From Phorcus lineatus (Eukaryota > Mollusca > Gastropoda > Trochida > Trochidae), in contig OV121081.1 in assembly GCA_921293015.1 (NCBI GenBank), positions 52,539,877 to 52,603,876 on the forward strand: DNA of 64,000 nt, written 5' to 3'. Positions within the stretch are counted from its first letter, which is position 1. The number at the start of each line of letters is the position of its first letter. A program made the position numbers and the translations under genes. Below, piece by piece: positions 8,110-46,673 of the stretch. The notes under the pieces were generated by a model that did no database searches, was not told where the DNA came from, and saw only the letters and a list, made by a program, of their open reading frames with translations.

Positions 8110-8170
8110 ATGAGTGCTGATAACCTTTGCTTTTGGATTAGTTTCGCCAGCGCCTTCTTATTGCACGGAG
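8110..8170 (+). CDS. nAChR coding exon 1 (start codon and signal peptide)
   Basis: ATG at 8110 with A at -3 opens 20 codons plus one base, followed by a strong donor (G|GTAAGA at 8171). The peptide MSADNLCFWISFASAFLLHG is a credible signal peptide with a hydrophobic LCFWISFASAFLL core. The phase-1 end matches exon 2, and a phase-1 first intron after the signal peptide is usual in nAChR genes. The link across a 14.5-kb intron is inferred from phase and content only. The alternative is a start at 22571, upstream of and in frame with exon 2. Confidence 0.6.
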
Positions 8171-20400: not shown

Positions 20401-23400
20401 TTTAAAAGCTTTTGATAACATTCTATCACGACCTAATTGGTAGCACTGCTGGGGGATCTCAAAAAGACCATAAAGAGTTCATCTAGTGGACAGTTTCGAA
20501 TTGTCTCTTTGAGCCTGATGAGGCACGTGAAACTCGATGTTTGCCTAGATGGAAATATGAGCGCCTGGAGTAGGCCTATGTTATTGTTAGGAGTACCTCC
20601 CAAGAGTTTCCCAACCTCGTAACCCTCCTCGTTAACACAAGAAGCTCCCAATGCCTGTTGTAACGGAACGAGATGTTTTGGGTCTTCTATCAAGTGTGGC
20701 ACTTAACTAGGTGATTGAGACGGTGACGCTTTGGACAGGATTTTCATTATCCAGCGTTTTTTTACAAACCATAGGAGAATAGGAACGTGCAGTTGAATCT
20801 TCTTCACGTCTTTACATATTGTTCTTCAGTATTCCTGCACATGGGGCCAGCGTCGTTATGGCTACTCTCACATCGATCTCTATGTTTTCCCAATTTTAAA
20901 TATTATTTCTGTATCATGAGACGTTTATCTTGAAAACATTTTAACTGAACAAGAGTTTATTCTATTCGGAATGAAAGTGGTTGCGCATCGATTTGATGTA
21001 AGTGGTTAACATTTTTTGATGCTTTTATGCCAACAGAAACTAGATCTTCCAAACCTTAAGGCCATATCAAGAAGCAATGTTTTTGAAATTTTGAAACTTT
21101 ATGAGAGGTTATTTTTTATATGACCAAGTAATTCAAACTTTAATATTCTTTTTAATGCTTTAGAGTCTCAGTGTTTCTGGTGATTGATAACAGAATTCTA
21201 AAAGAACAGTTGAAATTGATTGAATTTATCTTTTTTAAGAGATGAAGAGATCTGCTTATTTGTCTGTTTTATCATTAAGATTTTGATGTTTTAACAAATA
21301 TTATTTGAAGAAGAGGTTGTAACGGCAACGGTGACGTTTCTTCTATTGTCGTATGCATTCACCTTAAGACTTCCAATCGATTTTTTTCAGAGACCTAAAT
21401 GTTCGGAAGTTGGATATTTGTCAACTTTTATCTCTAAAATGCACCTTAATGACTTGTCATACCTTACATTAGAGTAATATCATTCTCCCATGCTGAAAAG
21501 AAGCAGACAAGATCATGGATAGCAGATCGTCTACCGTGACATGTGTGGATAAATGTTTCTGATTGCAAATTAAAAAGGGGTCAATTTACCATTGAACGTA
21601 TTGCTTATAGGAAGGAATTTTACTATGCATTGACCCAGAGACTGACATTTTGCCTACCCCTGAGATTATGTGCAACCGGTTTTCACTTTCAGTGAGATTA
21701 TATTTTTTTAAGGTATCGCAAAAATGTTCTAATTTGTGTTGACACAAAAAGAGTAGTTTGTGTTCGTTGAGATACCAATCACTGTAAACTGAGGTAGCCC
21801 CCAATGCAATCAACGGACAACGTTGCGTATACGGCAACAAAACAATGATGCCATGACGCGAGCGACTCTAAAGTCACAATACCTTAATGCGTCATAGTAC
21901 CTTTCATTCAACTATAAACCCCTAGAGGAAAAGCCTTTGTCAATGTCTTATCAAAACATTTGTAGATAAAAAGGATTTGTGAACATAGAGCATAACGTTT
22001 AGATACAATGTATCTTCATACCTAAAATTAAAATCTCAGCAGATCAGGCTACGCGTATATGTTGTCCTTTTATTTTAAAATACATTAAATTTATCTCTAC
22101 TTTACCCTGAATTGTTTTAAGTGGCTGCTTCCATACTGAATAAAGCCCTTGAGAAGACATATTCCAACCAAAACTCCTATGATTTAATGTAAACAGAAAT
22201 GTACCAACTCCATGTGAAATGTGTAATGTAATATTTGTGTCGAATAATGTCAACTATATGTTGTACAGTGAGTATATTAACATAATCGTGAACGGTGAAC
22301 AAACGCAACATTTCTGAAACTGCAATTTCTTACAATGTTATACATATGTTAACTATACCAATATATTTTGTTTTACATAAGGGAGACCCTTTGTTTAGCT
22401 CTGCTTACTTTCACACTTGTTTCAGAATGTCAATTATTTGTGTATTTTTGTAAAAGTTAAAAAATTATGCACAGTCCAAATTTTTATTAGATTTTGAACA
22501 TACATGTACGTTAACAAACAGAAATAGCTGTGCCTCTTGACTTTTGCATTCTTAACCTAAAGGTCAAGTCATGTTGTCGATGTATATTTATGTCAAGATT
22601 TTACATGGAGTCCATGTTCTAACATTCATATCAGTTTCAGGATGCGGTGGCAAGGGCACCAACGTGGTAGAGATAAAGCTCGTAGACATCCCCCGGACCC
22701 CGGAAGAAGAAGCCAACATCCCCGATGAGCAGCGATTGATGAACTACCTCACTAGGGGGTACGAGAAGTCGGTCCGTCCGGTCAGGAATGCTACGACCCC
22801 TGTGGTCATCAGGATGGGTCTCACGCTCACACAGATATTCGACATGGTAACTTAGTTTGCTTCACACTCGTTGCCTTAAATCTCATGATGTGTACATTGA
22901 TTCACTGAATTTCTTCATGTTCCATTACAAGGTCGATTTCACATTTAAGGCTAGAAACAACAATTTCTCTGTGAAAGCTATTCGAATTATGTGTTGCGTT
23001 ATGTTGTATACTGATAAAAACGATAAGCTACAAATAATGTTTTGTAAAGAATTTATTTTGCAGACTGAATCCAATGTGCATTAAGAAAATATTGTGGCTT
23101 ATAAGGTGGATGAATAGCGAATGAACTAATGGCATATTTCAATTCAGTAATTAAGATCTCTACTATCCCCTCTCATGTGTCATTATTGTCAACGTTTCTG
23201 TCAAAGCACTTCTGTTTATATCTGCCATGAAATTAGTCACATTTCATATCCTTTCAATGGGTGTGTAATGAAGCGAAATGGAGAGCCAATGAAAGATGAA
23301 GTCCTCCTTTCATCGGACAAAGTATCAGGGGTGCGTTATGTCCGGTTTCGCAGGAAGTTATCTGCCAATTCAGAGCCATGTCATATGAGTTTCTCATAAC

Positions 23401-24689
23401 TCTATATTATATGCGAAAGGCGTTAAAAGCCTGCTTTCGAGAATCTTCTCTGTAACCTGGATATCTTTCATCATATTGATATCGTTTCTTCTGTACAAAG
23501 TTGGGATTATTGAATGCCAGACAAAAGCGTTGACTAAATAATCAATGCCAAGTAAGTTTGCTTGTATTGTTTAAAGGGGGTCCTCTATCCACTAATACGA
23601 AATGATACGTTTCGAAATCAATCAATTGTGTTCTTTACGGATGTTGTGCAATGTAAATAGTGGGAAACTCTCACGAAACTAGGTTTGAAGTGGCCCGTGT
23701 GATTATTCCTTATAAATCCATAAATTCCAATAGACACTCATTGCTACATCTAATGGAAGTTATGACTCAAGTTGACAGTCTGATTCAAGAAGTCAATAAA
23801 ATCTAACGGTTGTGGAGGTTGGACTTTATTGAAAACGTGAATGAATCACATTGTGAGATTGTTATAATAATTTCAAATTAGAAGTTTTTCGGATACATAT
23901 TGCAGGGAACCATTGTGACTGTCTATACAAAATCCGATGCTCTCCTTCCCGGGCTTAATAGTATTTCTGATAATGATTGGTCATCTTGGAATTGCTGGTA
24001 AGGGTCTAGAGTATTACTGTCAACCATACATCGTGTTCGGAATTACTGATCCAGTTGCCTTACTAGAATCAACAGGAAAGTAGACGTGTTTGTGAATACA
24101 ATTGCACTCATTACTTGCACAAACAAATCCTTCAGGGAGAAAGGGACATCATCTCCCATTCATTCTTAAATACAATTCTGTAGATCCAAGATTGATCCGC
24201 CTTGGCTAGAGAAAGAGCATGGAATAACCAGTGTCCGCATCCTCCACTCTTCTTTTACATAGTTTTCCAATTAGAGGTATTAGCTAGCCATCAAGGAATC
24301 TTGTACTTCAAATTTGTCTACTCTCGAAGCTGAGACAGACATTGAGCAACACAATGTTAACAATGGTACATTATGTCTTGGTTTTGCATCCATTATAGAA
24401 AGAGAAATTACACGGTTATAATGACATGTGTACCTTACATTTAAAGAGTATTTCAGAGTACTGAAACCGCTATGTGTACATAGGCCGTCTGTAATATTAT
24501 TTGACGAATTAAAAACGCTTATAGTCCACACTGTCGTTATGGTGTAAGCGATCACCATCACCTAGTTCACTACGTTCCAGCAATGAACTGTGCTTGTCTG
24601 AATGATGCCAAATCAGAAGTGAATGTGTAAACGTGCATACGTATGGCTTATAACTTGAATCAGACGTCGTTAAATAGAAAATACAGTGT

Positions 24690-24727
<38 letters not shown>

Positions 24728-27700
24728 CCATAGACAGTTTCATTTGTCGATATTTGCATGAACGTGTTTTATCATTAGTACTTTGATTGCTTTTCCTATC
24801 ATTATCCTTTATCAACCATCATTAATCCAGTCTTTTCAGAATTGCCAGATGAAATGTAAAGATTATTATTTGGTTAATTATGAGTCATGTTGATTTATAT
24901 GTCTTGGTGATAACCTTTTTGAATTAGTCTGTGAACCAATAGCCACATAAGCAAAGTTCAATATACTCAAATAACTTATTCATGTTATCTATATTATGTC
25001 TTGCAGGATGAAAAGAACCAGGTTCTTGTTACTAACGTGTGGCTTGACCAGGTAAATATATATTCCCAAACTTGTTACTTTCAGGATGTAAAGAATCAAG
25101 TACTAATAACTAACGCGTGGTTAGATCAGGTAACTATGCATAGATCAATGTTGTACCCCTTATTGTAACTGTCGTAATAACATGTGTGCATAAGGCGTGT
25201 CTGCGTAAATCTTGTCATTGTGGCCTGGAGAGCACTAACTATCTAAGTGCAGATTTAATAATATTGAAAATATCAATAAATTCTCACTCAATTATCTTAA
25301 ACTACAAGCAAGCCAGTAAAATCGCTTTTTGGAACAAGTGCTTGTAAGTGCAGTAAATATTAAAGGTCTCTTAAAATTCAACTCTTTTCAAATGGTGAAT
25401 GAGTAAGGAACGTTCATTAAGTGTCATACTTAGTTGCCTATGAACATTTTGTAGACAGGAAGTAGTTCATTATCTAATAAACTAAGTGTTTCTTGAAAAC
25501 GTACAGACATGCGCAAACGCAACACGTTAGTACATTGTATTACTATATGTATACAATTCCGGGTGTAACAAAGTCATTGTGTTGTATTTAAAAGCACTTG
25601 TTTAAAATAAACGTCAACATTCCTAAATTGTTCCACTGGTAACTTGCACGAATCCTTTTCCTCATATGATAATGATCTTTACCAATAGCCCAGATCTCAG
25701 AAGAAAAAAAGAGCATATCATCCAAACCTACATTCCAATACCTTCATATTATACTCCTATTGTAAGCATTGTAACGTTGATCCTCGAAGTAATATATGTC
25801 ATGAGATCAGGACTCTTTTCTTGTGCACGTTTGCTGCTTTGCAGTGCTGTGAGCATGGGTCCATGTATAGTACCATGTCATGTAATCATGTACTATTGTC
25901 ACAGGAATGGGTAGATGAGTTCCTAGTCTGGGATCCACGGAATTTCAACAATATATCCATGCTAAGGATACCTTGCCACAAACTTTGGTTACCAGACATT
26001 GTCCTCTACAACAAGTAAGTACATTAGCTCATGTTTTCACCTCCTGAAACAGCCTTTCGTTTTCATAAGAAGACGATATTCTCGTAATTTTGATAAAAAC
26101 CAACCGGATAATTACCAATGTCATTGGCGATCATGTTTTTAGATATGTATAAATATAATATCTTATATGTCATTTCATTTAATATCTTATTTTAATATTT
26201 TCTCAAATAAAGGCCTGAATAAAATACCCAAACTGAATTTAGACAGTCTGAATAGTTTCTAAAATGTGATGTAAATGAAACATTTTACAGAGAGCACTAG
26301 AATACATGAACACGGACTGTTAATTGAAGGCGATAGGTAATCGAAGTTCTTTCCCACTGCTAATGGTTTCGCCTTGTAAACGAAGCTCCTCTTATGCTTG
26401 ACACGTCTGTCTTGTAGCCTCTTAAAGTATGCTGTTATTTGCTTAAGCACTATCTAATAATACCGCACATTTATATGTTGGGTTTAGATATTCATCCATA
26501 AACTTAACATAGTCGTTTGACACGTACATGATTTGATGGACGAGTAAATTCTACTTCTCTTCTCATCTCTTCCCAATAAGGAAGCTCAAGTCGTATCTAC
26601 CTGTGCTAAGCTTTGTAACCGTGGGGAATCCTGACTGGATGTATTCAAAATTAGATTTGCAATAAGAAAGCGATTTCAAAAGTTATCACTCAAAAAGCCT
26701 CCGTAAACTATAATTAGTTTGAATGTTCACAACGCATGCAGGTTTCTTGTCGAACACGGTCAAGTAATATGCGACTGAATTTGGTATAGGTCTCGCAGCC
26801 AACAAGAAGTTTTCAATATTCATTAGTTGCACATGTTTGGCCGCGAGGGGAATCTACTGAAATGTCAGATGTGCTTGAATTTAAAGAGAGGTTAGCGTAG
26901 GAACATATGACTTGAGCTGCATCTGTGGGGAGATAGTGTTAGCATTGATGATTTTGATGACGGCTGGGTCTGTACATGTAGGTTGGTTCATCTAATTAAG
27001 TTGACATGAAGTAGTGACATTTAAACAAATATGTCAACGCCTAACTTAAATACATAATTCATATAACCCCTAATCATAAAACATTTGTGATATTTCCTTT
27101 GGTCATTGCATCGTTATAAAAGGTTCGTGTTTAAGCCAAAGTATTCGAAGTTTAAAGTTTTATTCTTAGAATCTTCAAACATACATAAGTAGTGATACCA
27201 TCGTTGATAGCCATGCGTCAACATCGTTTTGTTTGCTCTTCAGTGCTGCTGAATATACCGACGGTCTCATGCCTGCAAATGCTATGGTAGCAGCTGACGG
27301 AAATGTGTTCTGGCCTGTACCAACTAAACTCCAAAGTTCATGTAAAGTTGACGTCACTTACTTCCCCTTCGACATACAACGATGCCGACTTAAATTCGGC
27401 TCCTGGACTTATGACGGTTACCAAGTAGATATAACTAATAGAACAACAGAAGTTGACCTCAGCAACTATGTTGTGAATGGTGAATGGGAACTTCTTAGAA
27501 TTCAAATCGTCCGCAATGTTGTTCGTTATGCATGCTGTGACGAACCGTTTCCTGACGTGACCTTCTACGTCACTATACGGCGACGGACGCTGTACTACAT
27601 GTACAATGTGGTGTTCCCTTGTGTGATGATGTCCGCTTTAACACTGCTGGTCTTCTGTCTGCCACCCGACTCCGGAGAGAAAATAGCCCTAGGTATAACG

Positions 27701-29927
27701 GTGCTGCTCGCCTTCTCAGTCTTCATGCTGGCTGTTGCAGAAAACCTACCGGAAACCTCGGAGTTTGTACCTTTGATTAGTGAGTATGACTGTTTATACT
27801 TTTATTAGCTTGAATGATGACATACAAACTGAACATACAGAGCTATTAAATTAACAAAAATGTTCGGATCTTACCATTCCCTTTTCTTGGCATGGACAGT
27901 TTCAGACTTTGCCATAAAATATATAGTGGATTAATTGAATGTCTTTGAGATTTGTGTGTCGTGAAAACAATCGTATTCTGATCGTGAGAGTGTCTTTATT
28001 GTGTAACTGTGTGTTGAAACAACTATATTCTAAAGCTGAAAGTATCTCCCTTTCCGTGTTTAATGATAGAGACAATTTACTTTTCGAATGCAACGTGCAA
28101 AATATAATAACTTTCATGAACGACAAACCTAATATGAGCTAAGGAAGATGGAACAAATTCTTTGCATTCATTATATCATAGAAAATTACTTTTTTTTGTA
28201 TAAGAAGAAATCTTAATCCTTGTCACTAATAATTCCGGAGTGCTTTTCAAAGAAAACACTGACTGAAGAATTGTTAACTGTTTAGATAAACATATTCATA
28301 TTTCATCTCACGAGTGACGAGTCTAAAGATTTTTTTATTTGGCTTTTTTCAACTAATTTTTTACACTGATATATATGTTTTTGAAAATATTTGATATTAC
28401 AATATGCCTGTCACAAATGTAAACGAAGGGTTATGCGATAGATATTGCTTTCAATGCATGTGTAAATGGCCGACGTGTAAACACTATATTGTGCTATTCT
28501 TTAGCTATTTCGTTCAAAGTGTTTAGTCTATTCATAATAAGTAGTTATTAATTCCGTTATATGTTGTACTTTTGGAAAGAATTAGTGGCGAATAGAAATG
28601 CCCATAAATATCGAGCGATAAACGAAATGACTTGACATCCTTAAAGTTATGTTCGTCGATCCTCTTTACTTTGTTATGCACCGATGTCTTGTACATTAAG
28701 AAATCAGATTAAATGCAATTGCATGATGACATTAAAAACGAATTATCAGTATTGACAATAAAAGTATTTTCAGGTATTATTTCAGCAAATTAATCAAGAC
28801 AAACCGATAATGACCTGTATTTATTAGTCTTCTGAGTGCAAGGGATTTCCGTAATGTTACATGTTAGATCTTTTAATTACTGCCGGAAATTTTCGACAAG
28901 TAGGAAATCGATTTCTTGTTTTCTGACCACGCAGCCATTTCCCATGTGCGATATAAACGAATATCGACTCGCATCTTCACGTTATTTTCGCCCCGTGGTA
29001 ATAAAACATGCCCTTACGGTATTAATACAGCGGCATCTAGAAATAATTGCAAAACTGCTATTAAGGTTCTGGTTTACAACGTTTTTAGAATCCTGACAAT
29101 CTTCTGCCTTAGGTGCCTTTAATGTAATTACTGCGCCAGCATAGAGAGTTTGATTTGACGGAGTTAGCAGTTTTACCCTGTTAGATGTTCTCACGATATG
29201 GCTTCAGTCCACAATGTACTCCATCAAATAGCTTAGTCCTTCTAGCTTTACCAAATGAGTTCATTTTAGACTTCTAGTCTCTTTTCTTGCAGGCATCTAC
29301 CTGACAATTGTAATGTCCTTAACATCTGTGTCCGTCATCATGACTGTGTTTGTACTGAATCTCCATCATCGAGGTCCTGACAAGAGGGCTATCCCTGGCT
29401 GGCTCAGACGGCTCTTCTTGGGTAGCTACAGACACCCAAGTATCTTCTTATCTAACAACGATAGGTGCTTCCTAAACCATTGTTCGTCCAACGAGGGCAA
29501 CTTCATGAGAAATCTCTCTCTGAAACTCACGCTAGAGAACATTGCACAGGAGCTTAAGGATGAACTGAACCTTGATAACGGTATGAACGACTCTGTCGCT
29601 AACGATACCCATGGTCAAAACACTTCGACTGACAGGCGTGATAGAGCCTACCCGAATATGTCATCTGCACAAGGGGACCATAGTCATGGACATTCCAAAC
29701 AAACCAACTCTAGGGGGAAGTTTGCACGGTCCTATGAGGACATATTGTTTTCTTTGACTCGTATTTTGGATAAGCATGAAAAAGAGGAGAAGGATTATGA
29801 AGTGATGCAGGACTGGAGGCGTCTAGCCCAGACTGTGGATAAGATACTGTTTTGTATATTCCTTGGTGGAACAGTTATTTCAACGTTAGCTATTTTAGTA
29901 ATTGCACCAGCCACTCAGCCCATGTAA
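8110..29927 (+). CDS. alpha7-like nicotinic acetylcholine receptor subunit (whole gene, spliced)
   Basis: Spliced gene model: 8110-8170, 22641-22846, 25007-25051 or 25085-25129, 25905-26014, 27244-27779, 29293-29927. With either exon 3 it gives 1593 nt, or 530 residues plus stop. Seen: a hydrophobic N-terminus; loop D Trp101; loop A WLPD with Tyr139; a Cys-loop C174-C188 with 13 residues between; loop B GSWTYDG (Trp195); loop C YACC (Y236, C238-C239); M1 about 258-280; M2 about 286-307 beginning GEK; M3 about 320-342; M4 about 504-523. The vicinal Cys pair marks an alpha-type subunit, and Glu286 at M2 position -1' is typical of cation-selective channels. The closest known type is alpha7-like, which can form homopentamers at the plasma membrane and conduct Na+/Ca2+ on acetylcholine binding. 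Family and fold are certain to me; the ortholog group and ligand are inferred. Codon phases join cleanly at every junction. Confidence 0.93.
12056..12324 (+). mobile_element. diverged copy of the TTAA MITE family, in intron 1
   Basis: It begins TTAAAGGGCTAC and follows the 40046 element in order: GTTGTTTGAGTCA-ATATG-CAAACTT, ATAAATGG, GTTCGAAAACTGGACA, GGGGCGCGCC, CAAACGTAATTTTTGA, then TGGTAGTGTTTAGTAGGTCA and AACTA. The match stops at the (AT)n tract, so the 3' half is missing or replaced. Confidence 0.7.
12325..12392. repeat. (AT)n microsatellite
   Basis: 68 bp of uninterrupted AT dinucleotide. It begins where the MITE family has an AT-rich segment, so it may have grown from that seed. 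Confidence 0.97.
14437..14479. repeat. (TAA)n microsatellite
   Basis: 43 bp of TAA repeats without interruption. Confidence 0.97.
22641..22846 (+). CDS. nAChR coding exon 2 (N-terminal helix and first strands)
   Basis: Acceptor TTTCAG ends at 22640 and donor GTAACT starts at 22847. The exon is 206 nt, enters in phase 1 and leaves in phase 0. It encodes residues 21-89: an unusually long acidic leader (about residues 25-48) before the conserved helix, read as DEQRLMNYLTRGYEKSVRPV, then the strand ending in LTQIFDM, as in other nAChR subunits. N70 in NAT is a likely glycosylation sequon. Vertebrate alpha7 exon 2 is shorter (140 nt); the extra length lies in the leader. Confidence 0.92.
22847..25006 (+). 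other. nAChR intron 2
   Basis: 2160 bp between GTAACT and TTGCAG. Apart from an (AT)n microsatellite at 24693-24725 I see nothing distinct. Confidence 0.85.
24693..24725. repeat. (AT)n microsatellite
   Basis: 33 bp of AT dinucleotide, about 280 bp before exon 3a. Confidence 0.95.
25007..25051 (+). CDS. nAChR exon 3a (loop D, first alternative)
   Basis: The acceptor TCTTGCAG ends at 25006 and the donor CAG|GTAAAT begins at 25052. The exon is 45 nt, phase 0 to 0, and encodes DEKNQVLVTNVWLDQ (residues 90-104). Trp101 is the conserved loop D tryptophan on the complementary face of the agonist site. The 45-nt length is the standard nAChR exon 3 length. This copy keeps the family-typical DEKNQ start. 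It is probably used in place of exon 3b, not together with it. Confidence 0.93.
25052..25084 (+). other. 33-bp micro-intron between exons 3a and 3b
   Basis: It begins GTAAAT and ends TTTCAG, so it has both intron ends, but at 33 bp it is shorter than metazoan spliceosomes normally remove. Donor and branch region would collide. It is 11 codons long and has no stop in the receptor frame, so retention of the whole 25007-25129 block would still be translatable. Confidence 0.8.
25085..25129 (+). CDS. nAChR exon 3b (loop D, second alternative, mutually exclusive)
   Basis: The acceptor TACTTTCAG ends at 25084 and the donor CAG|GTAACT begins at 25130. The exon is 45 nt, phase 0 to 0, and encodes DVKNQVLITNAWLDQ. 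I count 34 of 45 bases and 12 of 15 residues identical to exon 3a. Six of the nine differing codons are synonymous, so the copy looks selected for protein and is not decaying. Changes are E91V, V97I and V100A; the last sits next to the loop D tryptophan. The spacer to exon 3a is 33 bp, which should prevent joining the two. Confidence 0.88.
25130..25904 (+). other. nAChR intron 3 (after exon 3b)
   Basis: 775 bp from GTAACT to CACAG. When exon 3a is used, the intron runs from 25052 and contains exon 3b. No third copy of the loop D exon is visible. Confidence 0.85.
25905..26014 (+). CDS. nAChR coding exon 4 (loop A)
   Basis: The acceptor TTGTCACAG ends at 25904 and the donor GTAAGT begins at 26015. 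The exon is 110 nt, the classic length of nAChR exon 4. It encodes residues 105-140 plus two bases of codon 141: EWVDEFLVWDPRNF, then the loop A segment LWLPDIVLYN with Tyr139. N120 in NIS is a sequon. Cys128, just before loop A in RIPCHKLW, is not expected in vertebrate alpha7 and may be unpaired. Confidence 0.95.
26015..27243 (+). other. nAChR intron 4
   Basis: 1229 bp, GTAAGT to CTTCAG. No further feature seen. Confidence 0.88.
27244..27779 (+). CDS. nAChR coding exon 5 (Cys-loop, loops E, B, C, M1 and M2)
   Basis: The acceptor TTGCTCTTCAG ends at 27243; the donor A|GTGAGT starts at 27780. The exon is 536 nt and covers residues 141-319. It holds the Cys-loop (C174-C188 with FPFD), loop B W195, sequon N206-R-T, loop C Y236-A-C-C, M1 and all of M2. 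M2 reads GEKIALGITVLLAFSVFMLA, with Leu296 at the 9' gate and Glu307 at 20'. The usual second loop C Tyr is Phe243, and the 2' residue is Ala289 where vertebrate alpha7 has Ser. One exon here spans what vertebrate alpha7 splits among about four. Confidence 0.97.
27780..29292 (+). other. nAChR intron 5
   Basis: 1513 bp, GTGAGT to TTGCAG, located at the start of M3. Short ORFs around 28836-29194 show no recognisable domain. Confidence 0.88.
29293..29927 (+). CDS. nAChR coding exon 6 (M3, cytoplasmic loop, M4, stop)
   Basis: The acceptor TTTTCTTGCAG ends at 29292. The exon completes Ser320 and runs to TAA at 29925-29927. It encodes M3 (about 320-342, ending FVLNLHHRGPDKRAIPGW), a long cytoplasmic loop rich in Asn, Ser and charged residues with an HSHGHS patch, the amphipathic pre-M4 helix around DKHEKEEKDYEVMQDWRRL, and M4 (about 504-523). 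The protein ends only seven residues after M4. The final ATG and stop lie within a donor-like GTAAGT at 29924. Confidence 0.95.
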
Positions 29928-31769
29928 GTTATATGGGATTGTGAAACACTGTATATACGTACTTGTAGTTTTAGATAACTCTATAAACTAAACATACATA
30001 CAATCTCTTTTCAAGCTATTCCAGAGTAAGTTTAAGCTAAGTTTCAGCTGAAATAACTTTATCATAATCTGTTTATCGTTATTTCTTCCAATATTGTCAT
30101 GTATTAATCAAATGATGAACCTTTCTCTTCAGAATGCCGAGCTATTGTTCCTGATTGTTCATTAACAAACACGAGTATGCTTAAGTAGTAATTAGGTAAA
30201 TATCTAGATAATGATGAATTGATAGATTTGAAGGTTTTAATTTCAACGTTGATTCATCCTTTGATAGATTTACAAACTTAAAAATAAATAAGTCATACGA
30301 AGTATCAGAACTGCTTTTCTCGTCAACTTTTATTATATTTCTGCAAGAACGTCTTTGTTATACGACCTGGACATTTATAATATCAAATTGACCTCTTTTC
30401 AGTTTTGAGTCATAACATTAAACAATTCCAGGATAAATACGTCAAGCGGAATACGCTTATTCACCGTAATGATTGTTCTGTCCCATTTTTCATAACAAAT
30501 TAGCACTGTGTATATTTACGACTTTCAACAGGACATTTCTTATCAGCTATCATTACACGAGCCACTGCAACAGTCATTTTGTGCAATATAGGCGCGCTGG
30601 TGCGGACCGATGTACTGCATAGAAAGTCAAGTATAAGACTTCAATTCTAACCTGTCAGAAAATGAGAGATCGATTCCCATTTAAACACAGCGCTTTCAAA
30701 TTGCTGAATATTCACTATCCACTGGAATGAAACTCAATAAATTAGGTAATTTCGGAAAATATGAGAACGGGCTACAAGTTCATTTTATCCTTGTCCTGTT
30801 AAATATCGAGTTATGCAAATTTTTCTCCATGAATTTCGAATTTTCTGTAACTGTTTGATTCGTATTGGCTCATCGGCAGGTGGGGAGAATATTAAGCATC
30901 ATAAGCCAGTAGTTAGGAGAATAATTCCGGATAGAAAGATCTCACATTACAAGCTGTGGTGCTTTTCATTAGCATGAAATAACAGATGCGGAAAGGCTAT
31001 ATGTAGAAGCTATCTGTCTTTCCCTGACAGATACTATGATTATTTCAAAGGATGTGAAAGACAGTTTCCGTTTAGACAGCCACAAATATAAAATTTCTAT
31101 ATCACGAGATGAGATAAACATTGGTACCGCCAAAAAAAGGTGAAATGATCACATTTTGCAAATCAGAATTTCTTTTGTGAATATGCTGCCCTTTGGTGGC
31201 TGCTAAGAGAATACCAAGTGACGTCATAGCGTTGACGTCACGCAAAAAACGACACATTCTTATCGCTAATTATTTGTTATAATTAACTTGGTTGTAGCTT
31301 TATAGTTTTATCTCAACAAACACACCTTAATGTATCTGCTTTATCTATCGTACTCATTGCTTACCATGAAAGTAATGATAATATTTTATGACTCATGTCG
31401 CAAATGTGCATACTGATTAATCAAAGGTTTAATAGCAAGCTTTGGTACACTTGTTTCATATGAATGTCCACATTTCTGACTGCACATTGGTAAACTTTGC
31501 TTTCCTGCTGTAGACCACACTTTCTGATTTCCCAAGTCATGGTAAAATATGTACATAAATAATGTGACGTAGATATTAGAGAAAAGTCTTTTTGCAGAAT
31601 TCTCAATTTTCAACGAGGCATCATTACTATATTGAAAAACAAGATGGTATCTCTCGTTAAACTGGCGCGCTTTCGTTTCTACACTAAGGTGTTCTCCATC
31701 AAATACTGTAGTCATTTCTGCTTATTTATAATATTTCTCTAGTATGTATCCAACCAATGAGTTTGGTAA
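29928..31769. other. 3' flank of the nAChR gene
   Basis: Contains the presumed 3' UTR. A pair of TGACGTCA palindromes lies at about 31220-31241. Otherwise AT-rich with no gene supported. Confidence 0.5.
30283..30288 (+). promoter_or_regulatory. possible poly(A) signal of the nAChR gene
   Basis: First AATAAA after the stop, about 355 bp downstream. Others occur at 30736 and near 32463. In AT-rich DNA the hexamer is common by chance, so the true 3' end cannot be set from sequence. Confidence 0.3.
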
Positions 31770-41538: not shown

Positions 41539-44445
41539 GTATCATTGGGACTTACTACCAGTAGAGTGAGTGAGCTGTAGTTAAGCCCTACTTTGGAAAT
41601 CATCTCTGTGTTTTGCCAATGATTCTACTTGGCACACATTTTAAAACTCATTTTACACACCTTTTAGAAAGTAACATTAATAGTAAAACCAATCTGAATC
41701 TAAATGGGATTCGAAATTGAACTTCATTTATGTAGAATATAGAACGACAGCATTTAGCTGTAACACGTGAATGAATTTCAAATCATTTCATAATCAATAT
41801 GATTTAGGAAATACACCCTATTTGCTCCATTTTACTTTCATATAACTAAGCTTAGAACGCCCTTGAATCAGCAAATATTTTTTTATCTACATGGACAATT
41901 GATAATTGTTCGTATCGTTAATAAATCGTGACTCTATGTTATAATATATGTTTTTTTAGTTTACGACTCATTACTGAATCTGATGTCATAGTTCATTATA
42001 TAGGCTTTTGAACTAATTCTTTAAAAATATGTGTCGTGTTCTAATAAATCATAATGATTTTCCCTAATCAAGGACAGATTGTGTATGTTGCATTGATTTG
42101 TACTTCTAAAGTTCACGTGTAGAAAGAAATCGATTTTTATTAATTACGTGTAGATGGGTTAATGAGTAAATGAGAAACGTGCAAACTGCTCATTTGTTAA
42201 AAAGGCTGTCATGAAAAAACCTATAATTACTTATTGAGAATGCTTTATACAGTGGTACTGTCACTAAAGTATTCTATGTTTTTTAGGTTAAATTTTCGAT
42301 CGTAATGATTCGGAACCATTGGTTTTTAAGATCACAAAAAAAAAGTTGTTTAAGCCAAGGTAAAATAACTTCATCTGTCATTAATTTGTTGACATCATTA
42401 TCAGATTGTTTTGGGGATAAACTAGTAATATTTGAAATTTATTTGATCAAATAAACATAATAGAAGTATTGACAAATATCACGAATCTTCAAATTTATCA
42501 TTTTGTTGTCATTCGGAGAATACAAAGGCGTGAATTCACCAATTGTAGTTACTATATTTCCTAAACATTAGTTAGTGGCAATCCTTGTATATTTGCGCAT
42601 TTAGATGCACAGTATATATTCGTGATATTATGCAGTGAACCATATAGCATCCATGAAACCTCACATACGTACATGTGCGTTATGCTGATAATCAATTGGA
42701 ATGTATGGTAGAGATTTTAAAGTATTCGCTTCAAACTAGATTCTTTATACAAATGTTGTTTTGCAATTCCCAATTTAATACTTCAAAGTACCGGGGAGGC
42801 TTGAGACATTCATTGAATTTGTTTACCCCGTGCACAGCATTGGTAGAAATGCAAATCTGAACATTATTAACTGTTTCGTAAGCACATTTACAAATTTACA
42901 CATAGCTTATTTATGAAGATAAAATGTAAGAACTATTTACTGCCAAATCAAGCAGACCAATTTAAAAAACAACATCGGTATGTGAAAATGTGAGGAGTTA
43001 GATTGAAAGTTTTGAAAAATACCTATGTGACCACTTCAGAGTTCGATGTGCAACGTTCAGTTACATTGTCTAACAAGCCAAACTTTCTTCAAATACTCTG
43101 CAAAGGTAAAACAGCTCCTTTCCCATTGCAACGGAAAGTTAATTATATCTTAGACGCGATATACGTGGTGGACGCGATATACGTGGAAAATATTATTATG
43201 TGTAGGCGTAGTTTATTAGTCATATATCTTTACACATTTTACAGTGTATAAATGGTAAAGAGTTCGATTTCAAAAGATCTTGTCAGCTATGTAACCTTCA
43301 CATTTATATTATAATAAAAATAAAGGATTACGATTATTCATATTATTGTAGTGGTCAATAGTCTTTAAATCGACACGTTAATCTTTACAAATGGTAGCAA
43401 ATTTGTTTGCGCTATTAATTATTTCATAATCACAAAATCACGGTTAACACAAATAAATAATTCGATTCCACTACGAGCCAGAGTCAGAGGTCAATGTTTG
43501 ACATGCCATCGATACTTCAACTTCAATCAATAGGGATTTTCTCTTTCTATTTGTTTATGTTATTTCGTGTTACCTCATTTGGCTAAAATTGATTTAATAG
43601 AATTTCTACTAAGGGCTTGAAAATTTCTTACCTTCCAAACATTTCATATTTTTAACAAGCGTCACTACATTTTCTACTTTAAAAGGGATGATCATTTCTG
43701 ATAACTGCGTGGTCTTGCAGTGACCTGACATTTTATTAACACCATAAAAGGGCTTTGAACGAAAGCACCTTATGAAGTATGACTCAGTGTAATCTAGATT
43801 GGTTAATAATCTATTGGGCATAATCATAATGAGAAAAAGAGGCGTCTCTTTTACATTAACTTGTTCATATTGTAAATTTCAAATAATGTTTTCACTAAGA
43901 ATCATATACACACAAACATGATTTGAAAAACGTATGTACTGTCCTGAATGCGAAGTTTGATGAACTGATGTTTCAAGTCTAAAAATCTGTTGTTTTGAAA
44001 ATCATAACTTAAGTGTGAACATTTTAAAGTAGCACTTTATTTAAACGTCTTTGTAGCAGATACAGCGATCATACAATTTCCTTTTAAAATAGATATCCAA
44101 AAACAGGAGCTAACACAAAGGTATTGAAGTTGTCCATAAGGATTTTACAAAAACATTTTTATAAAAGGATTACAGTAGGTCAAGTTGAGCAAAATTGCAT
44201 AAATTCGGATGTTTAAAAGATAATTTTCCTTTCAATCATTTTTTCAATTAATGTAAAACATGCCGGTTTATCCTTATTACAAAAAAACGTAAATTCTCTG
44301 TATTCCACAAATGATGCATGGCTATTCCCTTTCGATAATTCAAATTTGTCTTATCATTTTGTCTTCTGATTGAGTTGTCAGGTAAAGACATGTTTGATTA
44401 CTAATTACATATATTTTTCACGTTTTGCAATCCTTAGGAATCTCT
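41539..44445. other. AT-rich intergenic DNA
   Basis: Only a short direct repeat GACGCGATATACGTGG (twice, about 43153-43188) stands out. Confidence 0.45.
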
Positions 44446-44645
44446 NNNNNNNNNNNNNNNNNNNNNNNNNNNNNNNNNNNNNNNNNNNNNNNNNNNNNNN
44501 NNNNNNNNNNNNNNNNNNNNNNNNNNNNNNNNNNNNNNNNNNNNNNNNNNNNNNNNNNNNNNNNNNNNNNNNNNNNNNNNNNNNNNNNNNNNNNNNNNNN
44601 NNNNNNNNNNNNNNNNNNNNNNNNNNNNNNNNNNNNNNNNNNNNN
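44446..44645. other. assembly gap (200 N)
   Basis: Exactly 200 ambiguous bases, so the length is probably nominal. The gap adjoins a (GA)n tract, a usual cause of assembly failure. Confidence 0.99.

Positions 44646-46673
<2,028 letters not shown>

Follow-up and report, generated by a model that had tools for sequence, protein, structure and literature searches.

Tandem loop-D exon copies 33 nt apart in an nAChR subunit gene of the gastropod Phorcus lineatus

Background

In the insect nAChR subunit alpha6, a 45-nt loop-D exon (exon 3) is present as a tandem duplicate, the two copies of which, 3a and 3b, are alternatively spliced (PMC1919356, PMC5111602, PMC6393475, PMC2045683). The duplication is described for most insects examined, though not for the honeybee, and the silkworm also makes transcripts containing both exons (PMC1919356). 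Transcripts with neither exon 3 occur as well (PMC5111602, PMC2045683), and changed exon 3 use accompanies spinosad resistance (PMC5111602, PMC6393475). In insect RDL and GluCl, which are anion channels and not nAChRs, exon 3, the region near loop D, is likewise duplicated (PMC2064938), and the loop-D exon therefore appears to be a repeated target of tandem duplication. Among the matches listed in the open-licence literature, no case of loop-D exon switching in molluscan nAChRs was found, and in the main text of a lophotrochozoan nAChR survey the string "alternative splic" has no occurrence (PMC6896357).

A 64,000-nt stretch of the Phorcus lineatus genome (GenBank:GCA_921293015.1, contig OV121081.1, bp 52,539,877–52,603,876), hereafter the window, raises the question of whether a gastropod nAChR gene possesses such a switch, and what the switch would change. 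An earlier note, made from the letters of this stretch, had described a pair of adjacent loop-D exons in it.

Results and discussion

Structure of the window gene

A complete and intact nAChR subunit gene was located at bp 8110–29927 on the + strand (Table 1), and its reading frame to the same stop is kept with 3a alone, 3b alone, both, or neither. The joined protein matched Pfam Neur_chan_LBD with 225.4 bits (cut-off 26) and Neur_chan_memb with 155.3 bits (cut-off 28.1). The vicinal Cys pair YACCDEP in loop C, encoded by exon 5, marks the subunit as alpha-type, and the same constitutive exon encodes both the Arg (RRRTLYY) and the Cys-loop aspartate (FPFD). When the Haliotis rufescens orthologue was used as the tblastn query (E up to 1), every exon had one place in the window gene except for 3a/3b, and no further duplicated exons were seen; the part encoding M1-M2 had one place as well, unlike insect alpha6, in which exon 8 also comes in alternative forms. 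A direct-repeat search of bp 22500–30000, a weak test by which 3a and 3b themselves were not picked up, returned one unrelated 27-nt pair, and Rfam at gathering thresholds gave no match within the window. A TA microsatellite lies at about bp 24694–24725 in the intron 5′ of exon 3a, and a run of Ns beside a GA/CT microsatellite at about bp 44440–44830 (200 Ns in the window) resembles a scaffold gap.

Table 1. Features of the window gene and of the second exon-3 pair (window positions, except for the second pair, which is numbered within the scanned stretch L016)
Feature	Position	Strand	Description	Evidence
Exon 1	8110-8170	+	signal peptide, MSADNLCFWISFASAFLLHG, donor gtaaga	H. rufescens orthologue, tblastn E 0.098 (weak), and phase
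Exon 2	22641-22846	+	N-terminal extracellular domain up to ...TQIFDM	tblastn E 1.4e-34, splice sites
Exon 3a	25007-25051	+	DEKNQVLVTNVWLDQ; usual loop-D form of the family	tblastn, alignment
Candidate branch point for 3b	25035	+	CTAAC adenosine within exon 3a, 50 nt upstream of 3b	motif scan
Spacer	25052-25084	+	33 nt, without yUnAy, in-frame, open (VNIYSQTCYFQ)	
Exon 3b	25085-25129	+	DVKNQVLITNAWLDQ; E45V, V51I, V54A (alpha7 mature numbering)	
Exon 4	25905-26014	+		tblastn, sequence
Exon 5	27244-27779	+	Cys loop, vicinal Cys pair YACCDEP, beta10 Arg, M1-M2	tblastn, Pfam of joined protein
Exon 6	29293-29927	+	M3, cytoplasmic loop, M4, stop	tblastn
Second pair, copy 1	L016 7573-7617		EERRQILHSNLWLKV; score 47	exon scan
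Second pair, copy 2	L016 8687-8731		DEKNQIVHTNLWLQM; score 67	exon scan

Exons 3a and 3b as a pair

Both exon-3 copies are 45 nt long and of phase 0, preceded by AG and followed by GT, with 33 nt between them; 11 of their 45 bases and 3 of their 15 residues are different. When all six frames of the 64-kb window were scanned with 3a, BLOSUM62 scores were 80 for 3a itself and 68 for 3b, as against 32 for the next-best 15-residue stretch, so 3b is not a chance match. Both donors match the consensus at 8 of 9 positions (6–8 in the gene's other donors), and the acceptors carry 10 (3a) and 9 (3b) pyrimidines in 14 positions (9–12 in the other acceptors). When the 958-Mb assembly of 74 contigs was searched with a 32-base degenerate exon-3 pattern allowing 1 mismatch, 18 matches were obtained (2 with the reversed control pattern), among which 3a/3b were the sole neighbouring pair, the pattern being blind to strongly diverged copies such as the first copy of the second pair described below. 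The two exons are thus homologous, adjacent, equal in length and phase and provided with their own splice sites, as is expected structurally of a mutually exclusive pair. The coordinates, phases and splice sites of the earlier note all hold, and the presence of two real, intact, in-phase loop-D exon copies is confirmed.

Class and relatives of the window gene

The closest relative, the best of 3,659 matches of which 120 were listed, was a Haliotis rufescens "alpha-10-like" protein, identical at 467 of 509 residues (92%) over exons 2–6; next among the matches listed were Patella (75% identity) and Gigantopelta (74%). In trees of 35 and 15 proteins, midpoint-rooted, the window gene grouped with subunits of molluscs, annelids, arthropods and nematodes named "alpha-10-like", a label that is the sources' own, the trees comprising no vertebrate alpha9/10 rows. 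Its split from fish alpha7 plus a beetle alpha7-class sequence was supported at 100/100 and 100/98, the beetle row, which covers residues 1–420 of a fused gene model, having a long branch. The description of the gene as alpha7-like in the earlier note could therefore not be upheld, and, as far as the beetle row represents that class, the window gene is a paralogue and not an orthologue of insect alpha6. Among the 120 matches listed, the sole insect name was the fused beetle model, a springtail also being present. Two loop-D copies about 400 residues apart were noticed in the models P0030 (Diabrotica) and P0092, which are probably annotation joins of neighbouring receptor genes, and the Silurus model P0126 also appears to be fused.

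Residues changed by the exon swap

In alpha7 mature numbering, counted on our alignment and agreeing at Glu45 with the published numbering (PMC1584325), the exon spans residues 44–58, and 3b differs from 3a by the substitutions E45V, V51I and V54A; the loop-D Trp and the next two residues are identical in both. Loop D was alignable in 114 of the first 120 listed relatives (6 without loop D coverage), and one with an insertion was dropped, leaving 113. In these aligned relatives, among the 120 matches listed, Glu at position 45 and Trp55 were each found in 113/113, position 51 was T, V or I in 111, position 54 was Val in 105, Ile in 4, Ala in 3 and Thr in 1, and the exact 3a peptide was present in 11. 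The set was extended to 147 retrieved proteins, comprising the 120 listed of 3,659 from the first search and matches from loop-D-centred searches with 3b and with the 3a+3b tandem (8 and 73 matches, respectively). A window-score scan of this set found Glu45 in all 141 proteins having loop D, the other 6 being without a recognisable loop D, and the other exon-3 copies found in the same genome with scores >30 had Glu45 in 12 of 12 cases. The combination of I51 and A54 was seen in 17 of the 147, most of them fish alpha7 proteins and one an octopus paralogue, in a count that favours such matches because one search query contained that stretch. Since I51 and A54 recur in relatives, V51I and V54A are regarded as ordinary variants, and Val45 as the outlier.

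Two scallop orthologues (Mizuhopecten P0008 and Pecten P0009) have Ala54 as in 3b and retain Glu45. It was also noticed that five orthologues (Nucella, Mya, Mactra, Pomacea and Batillaria; P0004, P0019, P0020, P0021 and P0031) read DEKDQ where the window reads DEKNQ; this Asn-to-Asp difference, recurring in three gastropods and two bivalves, is a change of the type that A-to-I RNA editing would make.

In the muscle receptor, alphaArg209, at the base of beta10, has as its partner alphaGlu45, which forms part of the beta1-beta2 loop tip (PMC10899235), and the equivalent pair in alpha7 is Arg206-Glu45 (PMC1584325). Substitutions of Glu45 are described as causing large functional changes, and mutating the corresponding pair in homomers, alpha7 included, as profound in effect, while changes at the corresponding positions of non-alpha muscle subunits are well tolerated and in some heteromeric receptors mutation has almost no effect (PMC10899235). 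The effect thus depends on the role of the subunit, and E45V in the window subunit may have a large effect or a small one.

Residues 53, 55 and 57, not 54, face the ligand, and all three are identical in 3a and 3b. With the ligand-facing residues unchanged and Glu45 lost in 3b, we infer that the swap would be a switch of coupling more than of ligand recognition. Isoform 3a would act as an ordinary subunit; a 3b subunit would keep the beta10 Arg but lose Glu45, one of the three acids binding it, and would mainly shift gating efficacy, or take an accessory-like role in mixed pentamers, rather than alter ligand choice. The earlier note had proposed that the choice of exon could change ligand sensitivity. 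This proposal is weakened: the exons do differ, but not at the Trp and its two following residues, and the standout change, Glu45Val, falls in the beta1-beta2 coupling loop. If the coupling reading is true, the same transmitter would be sensed by subunits with two coupling strengths, and 3b, if expressed, would be a natural swap at a much-studied coupling residue, offering a ready in vivo test of Glu45.

Age and constraint of the two copies

By the Nei-Gojobori method, 3a and 3b have 7.0 synonymous differences in 8.8 sites, which is saturation, and 4.0 nonsynonymous differences in 36.2 sites; 3b is therefore an old copy. The pair taken together evolved under purifying selection: neutral simulation of the 11 differences produced a mean of 7.2 amino-acid changes, and no more than 3 changes without a stop in 0.00075 of 20,000 runs. 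When drift was assigned to 3b only (20,000 runs each), the proportion with no more than 3 amino-acid changes and no stop was 0.060 for 4 synonymous events (about half), 0.149 for 3 and 0.326 for 2, falling to 0.033, 0.094 and 0.234, respectively, when AG/GT had also to be kept. Constraint on 3b by itself is thus only suggestive, and 3b is probably, not provably, functional.

These values bear on the reading that 3b is a silent or decaying copy, surviving by recency or hitchhiking while 3a alone is spliced in. Such a reading would account for Val45 at a site that is otherwise invariant in all 141 loop-D proteins, and the simulations of drift in 3b only do not firmly reject neutrality on that branch (0.033 to 0.234, depending on the age assumed); ascertainment also counts for it, the pair having been picked for being intact. 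Nevertheless, the synonymous saturation denotes an old copy, and yet no damage is seen in its frame, its length or either splice site, and 12 of its 15 residues agree with those of 3a, the residues I51 and A54 being tolerated ones, as their joint presence in 17/147 proteins indicates. We consider a silent 3b unlikely. The explanation that we favour, and hold to be probable as a whole, is that the 45-nt loop-D/beta1-beta2 exon was duplicated in tandem long ago, and that 3a and 3b are the two alternative forms that resulted.

Predicted splicing of 3a and 3b

A minimum of about 50 nt between donor and branch point has been proposed (PMC5740500, PMC7969005), and in OGDH 4a/4b, alpha-tropomyosin and alpha-actinin a distance below this is described as blocking exon joining (PMC7969005, PMC5740500). 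OGDH has distant branch points in a longer intron; the window pair differs in having no more than 33 nt between its exons and its candidate branch sites in the upstream one. Any branch point inside the spacer would be less than 50 nt from the 3a donor. A motif scan of the 33 nt found no yUnAy, a loose branch-point motif, and the nearest such motifs upstream of 3b, CTAAC (A at bp 25035) and TTGAC (A at bp 25047), are both inside exon 3a. Given a spacer below the 50-nt limit and without yUnAy, joining of 3a to 3b is unlikely; and since a 3a-to-3b intron cannot use a branch point that lies upstream of its own donor, recognition of 3b would thereby use up 3a. By this arrangement, the 3a donor and the 3b branch site could not be used together: the latter would sit in exon 3a, and defining 3b would consume 3a, so that splicing of the two would be mutually exclusive. 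Control of the choice by RNA structure was also considered and rejected as unsupported, the fold of bp 24950–25190 being no better than that of shuffled sequences (z 1.34; equalled or bettered by 184 of 200 shuffles).

The short spacer had been offered in the earlier note as a simple mechanism of exclusion, and it is indeed too short for ordinary 3a-to-3b splicing, but a fused exon had been missed. The spacer, a multiple of 3, is stop-free in frame, so that a single 123-nt exon from the 3a acceptor to the 3b donor (bp 25007–25129, reading DEKNQVLVTNVWLDQVNIYSQTCYFQDVKNQVLITNAWLDQ) would also be translated, adding to the subunit a 26-residue insert made up of VNIYSQTCYFQ and a second loop D, either alone or beside the single-exon forms. 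Steric exclusion is no bar to this composite, and exons of 123 nt are commoner than exons of 45 nt. Nevertheless, an insert in the middle of the beta2 strand and loop D would be expected to break the fold, the internal donor, which would have to be passed over, matches the consensus at 8/9 positions, an open spacer of 33 nt is not improbable by chance, and two loop-D copies within 60 residues of each other were found in 0 of the 147 retrieved proteins; use of the composite exon is judged quite improbable. Inclusion of 3a and then 3b with the spacer spliced out, the form made by silkworm alpha6 (PMC1919356, PMC2045683), would be in frame too. It would need a 33-nt intron without yUnAy downstream of the 3a donor, the corresponding intron being 899 bp in Tuta absoluta (PMC5111602), and it is very improbable here. 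Mutually exclusive use of 3a and 3b remains our preferred reading.

A second exon-3 pair in the same genome

On the same contig, 8.5 Mb from the window gene, a gene of the alpha7/insect-alpha6 class was found to have an exon-3 pair of its own (C1, bp 61,094,872–61,096,030; Table 1). As in the window, two 45-nt phase-0 copies lie between exon 2 and exon 4; they are 1,069 nt apart, however, share 8 of 15 residues and both keep Glu45, the first copy being more diverged. Synonymous differences were 6.0 in 7.5 sites and nonsynonymous differences 10.0 in 37.5. No other receptor exon was found between the copies by tblastn with six queries (E up to 0.01). Copy 1 escaped tblastn even with the threshold relaxed to E 5, and its identification comes from a scan for loop-D-like exons of the form AG-45 nt-GT over about 10 kb upstream of exon 4. 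The scan took 20 of the 61 other receptor matches, mostly stronger ones with short open frames. Exons scoring at least 26 were present in 11 of the 20 stretches and absent from 9, although for L009, among these 9, an exon came to light further upstream (L029); only L016, among the 20 scanned, had two. Read in reverse, the 397,580 bases of these stretches contained no exon with a score of at least 15; read forwards, they had only three between 15 and 33, so the score of 47 for copy 1 is not due to chance.

The second gene grouped with the beetle alpha7-class sequence (87/85) within the alpha7 group (99/97), and a SKSL-ANVL cytoplasmic motif is common to the two. By class and spacing, this pair, more than that of the window, looks like the counterpart of insect alpha6 3a/3b. 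The parallel with insect alpha6 drawn in the earlier note stands as a likeness of loop-D exon pairs and is better transferred to the second gene, insect alpha6 differing from the window gene in subunit class and in spacing (899 bp in Tuta absoluta against 33 nt; PMC5111602). Deep conservation of the window pair, which that note had set beside convergence, was not borne out: none of the 147 retrieved proteins has a 3b-type loop D, and this is absence of evidence only, the database being clustered at 90% identity with isoforms within a cluster invisible. Loop-D exon switching is already documented in insect nAChRs, and the window pair would be a variant of it, real and probably functional, with a 33-nt spacing and Val45. 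Tentatively, and with more doubt than confidence, it may be supposed that the splice switch turns a binding-to-gating coupler on or off via Glu45, hard-wired by the 33-nt spacer with the 3b branch site in 3a, and that, taken with the second pair, loop-D switching is ancient or repeatedly evolved across animal nAChRs. The presence of two separate pairs in one genome makes convergence and deep conservation directly testable.

The nAChR family of this genome is very large: a single 116-residue query had 149 matches, counted as exons or genes, at E up to 0.001. Single open frames of 300–470 codons hold many of these, as described for molluscs; gene expansion and intronless copies are reported in the lophotrochozoan survey (PMC6896357).
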